A DNA stretch of 64,000 nt from Actinomyces slackii. Its GTDB lineage: Bacteria; Actinomycetota; Actinomycetes; Actinomycetales; Actinomycetaceae. Where the stretch lies: assembly GCF_900637295.1 (NCBI RefSeq), contig NZ_LR134363.1, positions 186,001-250,000 of the forward strand, read 5' to 3'. The position numbers and the translations under genes are program-made. The notes below the pieces were generated by a model. That model was given only the letters and a program-made list of their open reading frames with translations. It was not told where the DNA came from and made no database searches. Shown piece after piece: positions 7,292-62,979 of this stretch; position 1 is the first letter of the stretch; each line of letters opens with the position of its first letter.

Positions 7292-8341
7292 TCAGCGCTT
7301 GGCCGAGCCCACCGAGCCGAGGCGCTCGCAGGCCTCGACGACGCGGGCGGCCATGCCCTCCTCGGCGGCCTTGCCCCAGGCGCGGGGGTCGTAGGTCTTC
7401 TTGTTGCCGACCTCGCCGTCGATCTTGAGGACGCCGTCGTAGTTCTTCAGCATCCAGTCGGCCACGGGACGGGTGTAGGCGTACTGGGTGTCGGTGTCCA
7501 CGTTCATCTTGATGACGCCGTTGCGCACCGCGGTGGCGATCTCCTCGTCGGTGGAGCCCGAGCCGCCGTGCATGACCAGGTCGAAGGGCGAGGAGGTGTC
7601 GCCGACCTTGGTCGACAGGCGGTCGCCCAGGCGCTTGGCGCACTCGTCCTGGATCTCGCCGAGGATCTCGGGGCGCAGCTTGACGTGGCCGGGCTTGTAG
7701 GAGCCGTGCACGTTGCCGAAGGTCAGGGCCGTGATGTAGCGGCCGTTCTCGCCCAGGCCCAGTGCCTCGATGGCGCGCCAGGCGTCGTCGGCCGTGGTGT
7801 AGAGGTTGGCGTTGACGTCACCCTTGATGCCGTCCTCCTCGCCGCCCACGGCGCCGATCTCGATCTCGAGCACGACGTTGGCGGCCTTGGCGCGGGCGAG
7901 CATGTCCACGGCGATCTCGATGTTGTCGTCCAGGGACTCGGCCGAGCCGTCCCACATGTGGGAGTTGAACATGGGCAGCTCGCCGCGCTTGACCTGCTCA
8001 GCCTCGATCTCCAGCAGCGGGTGGATCCAGGGCTCGAGCATGTTCTTGGGGCAGTGGTCGGTGTGCAGGCCGATGACACCGGGGTAGAGGTCGCCCACGG
8101 CGCGGGCGTAGGCGGCGAAGGCGATCGAGCCCTTCACCTTGTCAGCGCGCGAGGAGCCGGACCAGTAGGCGGCACCACCGTTGGAGATCTGGACGATGCC
8201 GTCAGACTCGGCGTCGGCGAAGCCCTTGAGGGCGGCCGACAGGGTCTGGGAGGAGGTGACGTTGATCGCGGGGATGGCGTACTTGCCGGCCTTGGCGCGG
8301 TCAAGCATGTCAGCGTAGGACTCCGGGGTTGCAATGGCCAC
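7292..8341 (-). CDS. fba: Class II fructose-bisphosphate aldolase
   Basis: A 349-residue zinc-dependent class IIA aldolase that splits fructose 1,6-bisphosphate into DHAP and glyceraldehyde 3-phosphate in glycolysis. Visible signatures are the N-terminal YAIPAINVTSSQT, the catalytic and zinc-binding HTDHC, the long insertion containing FNSHMWDGSAE, TFGNVHGSYKPGHV, and the phosphate-binding MHGGSGS and GVIKMNVDTDTQYAYTRP. Length and motifs match the housekeeping enzyme of actinobacteria. It lies downstream of the TrmH-like gene and pyrE, as is common in this phylum. A second, shorter aldolase (32482-33342) belongs to an accessory sugar operon and is a different subgroup. Confidence 0.96.
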   Translation of the reverse strand: MAIATPESYADMLDRAKAGKYAIPAINVTSSQTLSAALKGFADAESDGIVQISNGGAAYWSGSSRADKVKGSIAFAAYARAVGDLYPGVIGLHTDHCPKNMLEPWIHPLLEIEAEQVKRGELPMFNSHMWDGSAESLDDNIEIAVDMLARAKAANVVLEIEIGAVGGEEDGIKGDVNANLYTTADDAWRAIEALGLGENGRYITALTFGNVHGSYKPGHVKLRPEILGEIQDECAKRLGDRLSTKVGDTSSPFDLVMHGGSGSTDEEIATAVRNGVIKMNVDTDTQYAYTRPVADWMLKNYDGVLKIDGEVGNKKTYDPRAWGKAAEEGMAARVVEACERLGSVGSAKR

Positions 8342-8547: not shown

Positions 8548-9540
8548 TCAGTCGGGAGCCGGGCCGGCGTGCTGGAGGATCCAGGCGTGCATGGCCACAG
8601 CCGCGGCCGCGGCCACATTGATCGAGCGGGTTGAGCCGTACTGGCCGATCCTCAGCAGGCGCGAGCAGCCGGCGGCCAGCTCTGGGCTGATCCCCTCCCC
8701 CTCGGAGCCGAAGACCATGAGGCACCGCTCAGGCAGCTCCGCCTCCTCCAGCTGGAGCGAGCCGGGGCCGTTGTCGATGCCGATCACCTCATAGCCCTCG
8801 GCCGCCGCCCAGTCCAGGAGCTCGCCGGCCTCGGGGTGGTGGCGCACATCGAGGTAGCGGTTGGTGACCATGGCGCCGCGCTTGTTCCAGCGGCGCCTGC
8901 CGATGATGTGGACGCCGGCCGCGTTGAAGGCATTGGCGCTGCGCACGATGGAGCCGATGTTGAGGTCCTGACTGACGTTCTCGATGGCCACGTGCAGCAG
9001 GTGGGCGCGGGAGGCCAGGTCGGCGCGGATCGCCTCGATGCTCCAGTAGCGGTAGCGGTCCACGACGTTCCTGCGATCGCCCTGGGACAGCAGCTCCGGG
9101 TCGTAGCGAGGGTCCTCCGGCCAGTCCTGCCGTCCCCCGGGCCAGGGCCCGACGCCGACCGCGCGGGAGTCGACGTCGTGCTCCGCCGGGTAAGCAGAAC
9201 CTGTCGGGCGCTCATCAGCCTGGCGGTACAGCAGGGCGATCCCTTCGAGAACCTGACGATCAGGCTCGGCATCCGCCGCATAGGTGCGCGATGCGCGGTC
9301 ATAGACATGCCTCGCGGCGGCGCGGACCTCGTAGGGGTCCGGCTCGCCGGTGATGAGGTAGTGCAAGGGGCTATCGAGGGCGTAGGCGATCTCAGCGAGC
9401 TCGACCGCTGCGAAGGATCGGGTCCCTCCCAGGGCCTTGGACAGGGCCGACTCGCTCATCGCCACGCGGCGCGCGAGCTCAGCCTGCGTCATCCCCGAGG
9501 CGACGAGGGCTTCTTTGACCCGCCCTGCGATCTTCTCCAT
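8548..9540 (-). CDS. XRE helix-turn-helix / TrmH-family RNA methyltransferase fusion
   Basis: A 330-residue protein with two unrelated parts. Residues 5-60 form an XRE helix-turn-helix (GMTQAELARRVAMSESALSKAL). Residues 60-112 (DSPLHYLITGEPDPYEV, ARHVYDRAS, DRQVLEGIALLYRQAD) resemble the linker that in actinobacterial regulators precedes an ImmA/IrrE peptidase, but no HExxH follows. From about residue 128 (VGVGPWPGG) it is a complete SpoU/TrmH 2'-O-methyltransferase with LNIGSIVRSANAF, VFGSEGEGISPEL and STRSINVAAAAAVAMH. Between the parts the frame offers no ATG or GTG, so the methyltransferase cannot easily start alone. The enzyme part sits in its usual place between fba and pyrE. Palindromes 13-56 bases upstream suggest autoregulation. 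RNA target unknown. Confidence 0.85.
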   Translation of the reverse strand: MEKIAGRVKEALVASGMTQAELARRVAMSESALSKALGGTRSFAAVELAEIAYALDSPLHYLITGEPDPYEVRAAARHVYDRASRTYAADAEPDRQVLEGIALLYRQADERPTGSAYPAEHDVDSRAVGVGPWPGGRQDWPEDPRYDPELLSQGDRRNVVDRYRYWSIEAIRADLASRAHLLHVAIENVSQDLNIGSIVRSANAFNAAGVHIIGRRRWNKRGAMVTNRYLDVRHHPEAGELLDWAAAEGYEVIGIDNGPGSLQLEEAELPERCLMVFGSEGEGISPELAAGCSRLLRIGQYGSTRSINVAAAAAVAMHAWILQHAGPAPD

Positions 9541-9552
9541 GGCACCAGCCTA

Positions 9553-9583
9553 CGCAGATCTTTCGATTTGAGAAAGATCTGCG
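9553..9583. promoter_or_regulatory. Palindromic operator upstream of the XRE-TrmH gene
   Basis: CGCAGATCTTTC and GAAAGATCTGCG are perfect 12-base inverted repeats with a seven-base AT-rich spacer. They lie 13-43 bases upstream of the start codon, where a repressor would block transcription, and are the obvious candidate site for the fused HTH domain. As RNA it would also form a hairpin. Confidence 0.55.
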
Positions 9584-9596
9584 ACGGAACCGTCGC
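9581..9596. promoter_or_regulatory. Second short palindrome upstream of the XRE-TrmH gene
   Basis: GCGACGG-AA-CCGTCGC is a perfect 7+7 inverted repeat that overlaps the last three bases of the larger palindrome. It may be part of the same operator or a pyrE-side terminator stem; pyrE ends 37 bases away. Confidence 0.4.
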
Positions 9597-9632
9597 ACGA
9601 TGCACACCGCAGGACGATGCTGCGGGCAGCGC

Positions 9633-10202
9633 TCAGGACAGTCCGAGGTCCTCCAGGCCCAGGGCGGCGTGGTACGCCAGTCCCTCGGCCTCGATGCGCT
9701 CACGCGCGCCCGTGGCGCGGTCCACGACCACGGCCACGGCCAGAACCTCCGCACCCGCCTCGCGCAGCGCCTCGACCGCCTCCAGCGGGGAGCCTCCCGT
9801 GGTCGAGGTGTCCTCCAGGACGACGACGCGCCGTCCTGCCACCTCCGGGCCCTCAATGCGCCGCTTCATGCCGTGGTCCTTGGCGGCCTTGCGCACGACG
9901 AAGGCGTCGAGGTCCAGGCCTCGCGAGGCGGCGGCGTGCAGCATCGCAGCGGCCACGGGGTCAGCTCCCATGGTCAGCCCGCCCACGGCGTCGACCTCGT
10001 CAATGCCCAGGCCCGCCTCCTCCAGCATGTCCAGCATGACGTGGCCGATGAGGGGCGCCGCCTCATGGTGGAGGGTGGCGCGGCGCATGTCCACATAGAA
10101 GTCGGAGGTCAGGCCGGAGGCCAGGGTCACCGTGCCGCGCACGACGGCCAGCTCTGCGACGAGCTCGGCCAGGCGGGAGACATGGGAATCGTTGGTGCTC
10201 AC
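9633..10202 (-). CDS. pyrE: Orotate phosphoribosyltransferase
   Basis: A 189-residue enzyme that transfers phosphoribose from PRPP to orotate, giving OMP in pyrimidine synthesis. The PRPP-binding signature VVVLEDTSTTGGSPLEAVEALREAGAE is intact. The region VTLASGLTSDFYVDMRRATLH and the FVVRKAAKDHGMKRRIEG loop are typical of actinobacterial PyrE. Length is normal. It lies upstream of the XRE-TrmH fusion on the same strand with a 92-base gap that contains palindromes, so the two may have separate promoters. Confidence 0.95.
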   Translation of the reverse strand: MSTNDSHVSRLAELVAELAVVRGTVTLASGLTSDFYVDMRRATLHHEAAPLIGHVMLDMLEEAGLGIDEVDAVGGLTMGADPVAAAMLHAAASRGLDLDAFVVRKAAKDHGMKRRIEGPEVAGRRVVVLEDTSTTGGSPLEAVEALREAGAEVLAVAVVVDRATGARERIEAEGLAYHAALGLEDLGLS

Positions 10203-45698: not shown

Positions 45699-45744
45699 CG
45701 CCCCGGGGGCGTGAGCGGGGAGTCCCGCTCACGCCCCCGGGGCG
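45699..45744. terminator. Strong bidirectional terminator
   Basis: A perfect 21-bp stem (CGCCCCGGGGGCGTGAGC... with its complement) around a GAGT loop, between convergent genes. It is the strongest ordinary terminator in the window. Confidence 0.9.
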
Positions 45745-62897: not shown

Positions 62898-62979
62898 CCC
62901 TGAGTCCGCCAATTTGCGTGAGTTCGTACTTTTCCGGGCCCGGAAAAGTACGAACTCACGCAAATTGGCGGAGTCAGGG
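62898..62979. terminator. 82-base near-perfect palindrome, no loop
   Basis: Arms of 41 bases (62898-62938 and 62939-62979) are perfect inverted repeats except for one position, and meet at CCGGGCCCGG with no spacer. It lies between the convergent fructanase and LacI genes. It can end transcription both ways, but its length and lack of loop are unusual for that. Confidence 0.8.

Follow-up and report, generated by a model that had tools for sequence, protein, structure and literature searches.

A predicted deletion-born fusion of an XRE-type DNA-binding domain and a TrmH/SpoU RNA methyltransferase in Actinomyces slackii

In a stretch of 64,000 nucleotides from Actinomyces slackii (contig NZ_LR134363.1, positions 186,001 to 250,000; hereafter the window), a single gene joins an XRE helix-turn-helix (HTH) to a TrmH/SpoU RNA methyltransferase. 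We regard it as probable that this fusion was born of a deletion, that it is translated as one protein from the ATG of the former repressor gene, and that the protein most likely binds the palindrome in its own promoter and so sets the level of its own synthesis.

Results

The fused gene and its enzyme domain

The fused gene (8548..9540, reverse strand) encodes 330 residues, made up of the XRE HTH, an ancestral linker and the TrmH/SpoU RNA methyltransferase. The frame is intact and stays open for 330 codons from the ATG at 9540. Upstream lies a gene with a phosphoribosyltransferase domain (9633..10202, reverse strand), which we take to be pyrE, and downstream lies fba, encoding class II fructose-bisphosphate aldolase (7292..8341, reverse strand). 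In a search of 49 genomes of the genus, which include that of the window, the sole full-length match to the 330-residue fusion was in the window's own genome.

The HTH DNA-binding domain occupies residues 1-66 (9343..9540, reverse strand) and was assigned by homology, with an AF2 pLDDT of about 87-97. Pfam HTH_3 matched residues 8-62 with 21.8 bits, just below its cut-off of 23, and the decisive basis for calling the N-terminus an XRE HTH is its homology to free-standing HTH genes. It is 85-87% identical to the HTH of A. timonensis DSM 23838 (G042), the closest found, and 50-59% identical to nine other Actinomyces HTH genes. Residues 26-52, which from the fold presumably include the recognition helix, are identical to the free-standing A. 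timonensis repressor. Sequence comparison thus makes the N-terminus plainly homologous to the HTH genes that adjoin ImmA. Residues 67-108 (9217..9342, reverse strand) correspond to the C-terminal part of the ancestral free-standing HTH protein, retained almost to its last codons (...LLYRQA), and are followed by the deletion scar, or junction, at about residues 109-116 (9193..9216, reverse strand).

The TrmH part (8551..9192, reverse strand) consists of a variable N-terminal arm, a conserved VGVGPWPGG...GDRRNVVD segment and the SPOUT domain. Within it, the Pfam SpoU_methylase domain (8587..8997, reverse strand; residues 182-318) scored 99.3 bits against a cut-off of 29.7 and covered profile positions 2-142 of 142. 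In an AF2 model built from a 51-row alignment, residues 1-66 were confident, the linker at about residues 71-130 was of low confidence, and residues 131-330 (the SPOUT domain) were mostly above 90 pLDDT; a structure search with this model returned the TrmH structures 1zjr, 7edc and 1v2x as top PDB matches. The SPOUT fold was assigned from the model and these matches. Judged from the domain match and the model, the C-terminus is a TrmH/SpoU SPOUT methyltransferase whose enzyme domain is predicted to be intact. The equivalog profiles for TrmH proper (tRNA Gm18; NF008295) and RlmB (TIGR00186) gave 43.1 bits against a cut-off of 227 and 47.4 bits against a cut-off of 160.15, respectively. Because both scores fall far under the cut-offs, TrmH proper is not indicated and these profiles assign no RNA target. 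A TrmH homologue was present in all 49 genomes of the genus, adjoining pyrE and/or fba wherever the retrieved stretch reached them.

The unfused arrangement in related genomes

The pyrE-trmH interval was compared across the 49 genomes of the genus, each represented by one stretch; for G013 and G034 the retrieved stretch was without pyrE. In 10 of the 49 (G005, G008, G015, G016, G023, G032, G036, G037, G042 and G048) the gene order was pyrE, an HTH gene, an ImmA/IrrE-type protease gene, a PIN-like gene that was often truncated, trmH and fba. The free-standing HTH gene is about 111 codons long and comes next after pyrE, with the ImmA/IrrE-type matches behind it; the two ImmA proteins that were scored (G042 and G015) are Peptidase_M78. 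The third gene gave a near full-length match in one frame in four of the ten (G042, G023, G036 and G037); elsewhere its start lay in another frame (G015), it was truncated (G032, G048), only the tail was present (G005, G008), or there was no separate match (G016). At the loci L044, L046 and L039 (G016, G008 and G005) no more than a tail of the PIN-like gene is left, and at L044 the ImmA frame runs into an apparent PIN-like tail, by its look another deletion-born fusion. G013 carries a broken HTH remnant upstream of trmH and out of frame with it (L048:2527-2765), that is, a decayed cassette. No HTH was seen at the pyrE-trmH locus in the remaining 37 of the 49 genomes, and G019 had a partial HTH match on another contig. 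The intervals of G029, G019 and G002 (L095, L049 and L103) are 1.1-2.2 kb long with no HTH match; other kinds of insertion also seem to enter this site.

The cassette of XRE protein, M78 protease and PIN-like protein occurs in varied Actinomycetota. A profile of the HTH (A1) matched 20 of 213 wider-family genomes at E <= 1e-12. The open frames around the other 19 matches were 58-233 residues long, save that of G126 (370 residues), whose TrmH match is on another contig; hence none of the 19 joins an HTH of this type to TrmH, the only kind of TrmH fusion that the survey covered. Scanning named genomes with A1 gave 25 loci, some of them shortened by contig ends. An ImmA-type match was present at all 25 and a third-protein match at 20, two of these as a tail only, while pyrE, trmH and fba lay within the 5 kb flanks only at the five Actinomyces loci; L071 had one weak TrmH-like match.

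In the third protein the D, TVL, N, GEAE and DD positions are invariant (motifs DNTVLIN, GEAE and TDD), and the model of this protein has a pLDDT of 92.5. VapC-type toxins lead a weak Foldseek list (E 0.08-0.14, probability 0.87-0.98) with no match at E <= 0.001. In Pfam there was no PIN match (4 families, one member each, E 0.17 or worse), and in the PDB no sequence match. We call the protein PIN-like on the strength of its motifs and the weak fold match to VapC-type toxins. Passages of Makarova et al. 2009 (PMC2701414) predict that Xre-COG2856 proteins with PIN or RelE toxins form three-component toxin-antitoxin systems.

The deletion and its junction

The window and A. timonensis align at 83% nucleotide identity through pyrE and the HTH as far as CAGGC, three codons before the HTH stop, and the alignment picks up again, now at 78%, with the conserved RxVGVGPW of TrmH. 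The DNA that separates the two points measures 52 nt in the window and 1,423 nt in A. timonensis. Set against this relative, which is not a direct ancestor, the window is short of about 1.4 kb that holds the protease gene, the PIN-like gene and likely the trmH start; the HTH, linker, promoter and operator are retained. By our reading, the A. timonensis trmH starts at GTG, and its first codons appear to have no clear counterpart in the window. The window's CAGGC|TGATG equals CAGGC-CGCACTGGCA-TGATG of A. timonensis minus the middle 10 nt, and TGATG resembles the overlap of HTH stop and ImmA start. Loss of the 10 nt of CGCACTGGCA would carry the reading frame beyond the HTH stop, a correspondence that is suggestive only.

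A frameshift or base-calling error was rejected as the whole cause of the joining, since the relative has 1.4 kb extra between the two parts. The first-pass annotation had held that separate HTH genes in close relatives, together with a frameshift or sequencing error here, would undo the fusion; the HTH is indeed separate in relatives, but the junction corresponds to a deletion of roughly 1.4 kb with the frame intact. Its proposal that an IrrE-type regulator lost its peptidase and captured the enzyme was essentially right, except that in the relatives the peptidase is a separate downstream gene.

At the window locus there was no match to ImmA or the PIN-like protein, so that the XRE-ImmA-PIN module is not complete there. 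The PIN-like protein of A. timonensis also had no match in the window's genome, an empty result that by itself shows little. The same genome carries, at about 2,326,800-2,329,060 (L105:22-2262), an intact second pair of an HTH gene (115 residues, HTH_3) and an ImmA-like gene (278 residues, Peptidase_M78) with overlapping stop and start, next to a 312-residue frame of the Fic/DOC family. The ImmA of this distant pair, with only 34-36% identity across some 90 residues, could in principle act on the fusion in trans.

Promoter and operator-like palindromes

Upstream of the fused gene lies an operator-like palindrome, CGCAGATCTTTC-N7-GAAAGATCTGCG, with 12-bp arms (9553..9583, reverse strand; -43 to -13 relative to the start codon). 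A second palindrome, TGCGACGGttCCGTCGCA, has 8-bp arms (9580..9597; -57 to -40) and shares 4 nt with the first. Among 20,000 sequences, each of 100 nt, generated by a first-order Markov model of the palindrome region, arms of at least 12 (loop up to 12) arose at a frequency of 0.0001 and arms of at least 8 at 0.018. The 12-bp-arm palindrome is beyond chance and its core is kept in relatives. The 8-bp-arm palindrome is weaker and was not seen in the 10 relatives with the HTH cassette; two perfect palindromes had been listed from the letters alone, and only the longer came through this comparison well. G032 and G005 have a different dyad with 6-bp arms at about -71 to -49. Elsewhere in the window, long inverted repeats at 62905-62972 and 45699-45744, with arms of at least 28 and 17 bp, are terminator-like or element ends.

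TCTTTC starts at -36 to -38 upstream of the HTH in all 11 loci (the window and the 10 relatives), and 7 nt after it the mirrored half GAAA follows in nine, with GCAA in G015 and G048. The inner bases of the left half read TTTCTC in the window, as against the usual TTTCGA. A -10-type box, TAGGCT (9547..9552, reverse strand), lies 6 nt before the ATG, and in 11 of 11 HTH loci a TAnnCT box ends 6-7 nt ahead of the start codon; therefore a leaderless transcript is predicted. TANNNT about 12 bp before the start is described, in passages of PMC3160421, as a signature of leaderless genes that is common in Actinobacteria.

With at most one mismatch, the strict pattern CTTTCGANNNTCGAAAG had a single match in eight of the 10 genomes with the cassette, each time at the HTH promoter, and missed G015, G048 and the window. 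It also matched once each in G021, G024 and G040, all without the cassette, and the reversed control matched in 3 of the 49 genomes. In the window's own genome, TCTTTCNNNNNTCGAAAGA had no second site at fewer than 2 mismatches; at 2 mismatches there were three other places against one for the reversed control, and a regulon beyond the fusion's own promoter was rejected on these counts. As the only good site found in the genome is that promoter, the operator looks autogenous, and control by the fusion, if any, is probably autogenous. The fused gene has, in its own promoter, the conserved operator-like dyad looked for in an autorepressor.

A second fusion in a metagenomic protein

Among the best 120 of 7998 proteins scored, only one had HTH domains. 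This metagenomic protein, P0002, is 305 residues long and is represented in ENA by 5 member sequences on 9 contigs. It joins the HTH, to about residue 66, directly onto the TrmH arm, so that its junction differs from that of the window. Over residues 1-66 the window HTH has an identity of 0.88 to the unfused A. timonensis protein and 0.58 to P0002, whose own HTH is nearest to G023 (0.74) and then G015 (0.71). The different HTH allele and the different junction disfavour a single shared origin with P0002; in the TrmH tree, the support values that bear on one origin (84/13 and 87/34) neither support nor firmly exclude it. The simplest reading is that HTH-TrmH fusions probably arose twice, by two independent deletions. 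The cassette ancestry of P0002 is suggested by its HTH alone. A protein search with residues 1-115 alone gave no match, though P0002 is related (pairwise blastp E 4e-26), and that search is not evidence of absence. Searching with the P0002 region returned only P0002 itself. Viral carriage of the HTH was set aside after a scan of viral contigs gave only 3 weak loci (34%).

Selection on the HTH and history of the locus

Between the window and A. timonensis, dN/dS was 0.105 for the HTH (108 codons; 37 synonymous and 16 non-synonymous differences), 0.200 for TrmH (203 codons), 0.171 for pyrE and 0.138 for fba. In relative-rate counts with nine outgroups, the window had more changes with G023 (4:3), G048 (5:3) and G037 (3:1), the counts were equal with G015, and A. 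timonensis had more with the other five. These figures speak against free decay of the HTH, although the fusion could be young and the conservation older than it. For the selected fusion linking methylation to transcription control that the first-pass annotation suggested, the evidence falls short: the HTH is without relaxed evolution and the operator is kept, yet the gene's own promoter is the only good site found.

The same data bear on whether the HTH is a passenger that represses nothing and was kept only as a source of promoter and start codon for trmH. The likely native trmH start is gone with no close substitute, chance would join the parts in frame in about one of three deletions, and relatives show plain decay at the same locus, where the HTH of G013 is broken and no more than four of the ten cassettes have a third gene that its match shows as intact. 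Against this, the amino acids of the fused HTH are as constrained as those of the unfused relative; the palindrome arms of the window, at 12 bp, exceed those of the relatives, which measure 6-8 bp in eight of the 10, with none of at least 6 in G015 and G048; and the second lineage, P0002, kept a well-scoring HTH (HTH_3, 40.3 bits). We consider a mere passenger unlikely.

In the TrmH tree the window falls near the P0002/G023 side with weak support, and A. timonensis belongs to a well-supported clade with G006, G016 and G008, whereas the window HTH is clearly A. timonensis-like. Because TrmH and HTH of the window differ in their nearest relatives, cassette alleles probably moved between species at this locus, and the cassette and its neighbours have mixed histories.

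Translation start

In the fused frame up to residue 175, ATG occurs at 1, 17 and 28, GTG at 26 and 160, TTG at 59, and CTG at 33, 37, 103, 104, 150, 151 and 175. The first ATG, GTG or TTG beyond TTG 59 is GTG 160, within the conserved enzyme segment, and between these two the only start-type codons are CTG 103/104 and 150/151. The open frame and domain matches, with this codon count, agree with the first-pass annotation that the HTH is joined to a complete methyltransferase in one frame and that no ATG or GTG lies at the junction.

Protein record P0001 (227 residues, identical sequence) begins at the CTG of residue 104 (9229..9231, reverse strand), which cuts off the HTH. Initiation at CTG 103/104 would yield an HTH-less TrmH of 227-228 residues, either as the only product or together with the full-length protein, and GAAGGG lies a few bases upstream. 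A near-identical stretch, GAGGGGATCGCCCTG, is found inside the HTH gene of the unfused relative, where it is explained, as in the fusion, by the conserved LEGIALLYRQ peptide. CTG is moreover a rare start codon, and upstream stands an ATG with a conserved promoter at leaderless spacing. An internal start is on this evidence improbable.

Discussion

We propose that pyrE and trmH were once separated by an ancestral cassette of XRE repressor, ImmA/IrrE-type protease and PIN-like protein, expressed from a leaderless promoter with the repressor's operator in the -35/-10 spacer. About 1.4 kb would then have been lost from within, at once or in several steps, and with it the protease gene, the PIN-like gene, and the start and first codons of trmH, so that the final codons of the repressor came to run in frame into trmH. 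The resulting protein would be a DNA-binding domain, a flexible linker and a SPOUT RNA 2'-O-methyltransferase, translated from the repressor ATG. Most likely it still binds the palindrome over its own promoter, so that its synthesis is held at a set level, and without the cognate protease, cleavage could no longer relieve repression. From the sequence evidence, the gene most likely encodes a self-repressing RNA methyltransferase without its de-repressing protease. We infer single-protein translation, DNA binding, autorepression, and enzyme activity with its substrate. Counting against this model are the deviant inner bases of the window operator, the HTH score under the Pfam cut-off, the start of P0001 at CTG 104 with an AAGGG-like stretch upstream, and the grouping of the window's TrmH apart from that of A. 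timonensis.

The two activities might also be coupled, the SAM- or RNA-bound state altering DNA binding so that methylation capacity feeds back on transcription. Both domains belong to the same polypeptide and are modelled as folded, and a dimeric state common to SPOUT enzymes and XRE repressors would favour coupling: XRE repressors are dimers. TrmH-type SPOUT enzymes are dimers too, according to passages of PMC9508554. The low-confidence linker at about residues 71-130, however, gives no sign of rigid coupling. Feedback of catalysis or RNA binding on DNA binding is unlikely, and the coupled enzyme-repressor as a whole we hold to be quite improbable. Slightly fainter still is the chance of an RNA-modifying enzyme that represses its own gene and occupies the operator according to its catalytic state or its bound RNA, thereby sensing the demand for RNA methylation. 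Such a sensor would have been made, probably twice in Actinomyces-type bacteria, when the protease and PIN-like genes of a toxin-antitoxin-like cassette were deleted. An assembly artefact that dropped 1.4 kb is scarcely credible: the comparison rests on one strain of the species, but the genome is a complete single contig of 3,220,508 bp, the retained trmH arm differs from that of the relative, and an independent protein, P0002, has the same architecture.

The deletion-born fusion matters in several ways. With the unfused state still present in relatives, it shows a repressor-protease-PIN cassette decaying by deletion, and what is left is an RNA-modifying enzyme that carries a DNA-binding domain and is placed behind the promoter and operator of the cassette. 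Should the HTH have kept its binding, the fusion would be an RNA methyltransferase with autogenous control of transcription built into it. The fusion also brings to light a start-site problem, as a record that begins inside the gene hides the HTH.

Literature searches, judged by title or the start of the abstract, found no HTH-SPOUT fusion; one paper that they returned, PMC1564403, deals with GIY-YIG nucleases. In the portions available of two SPOUT overviews (PMC9508554 and PMC1829167), 'helix-turn-helix' occurs 0 times in each, and 'HTH' occurs once in the former and 0 times in the latter. The fusion is a new arrangement of known parts. BirA, NadR and PutA are enzymes that carry a DNA-binding domain and act on their own promoters; their folds differ from those of the fusion, for which nothing points to control of DNA binding by substrate. 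ImmR/ImmA and DdrO/IrrE each pair an XRE repressor that has a C-terminal extension with a separate protease gene and an operator in the repressor's own promoter. The cassette is alike in these features, but at the window locus the cognate protease gene is absent. Repressor-protease pairs of both types are partly described in PMC2701414. The XRE-COG2856 (ImmA/IrrE)-PIN operons in passages of the same paper resemble the ancestral cassette, in which the XRE gene overlaps the M78 protease gene and a PIN-like gene follows; in contrast to them, the window keeps the repressor only, fused to a genus-wide RNA methyltransferase (PMC2701414). Compared with the Actinomyces TrmH/SpoU protein, the fusion has had its native N-terminus swapped for about 108 residues of DNA-binding protein. 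The Actinomyces TrmH/SpoU protein, which we take to belong to COG0566, the TrmH/SpoU 2'-O-methyltransferases, is encoded between pyrE and fba and has the same complete SPOUT domain as the fusion.
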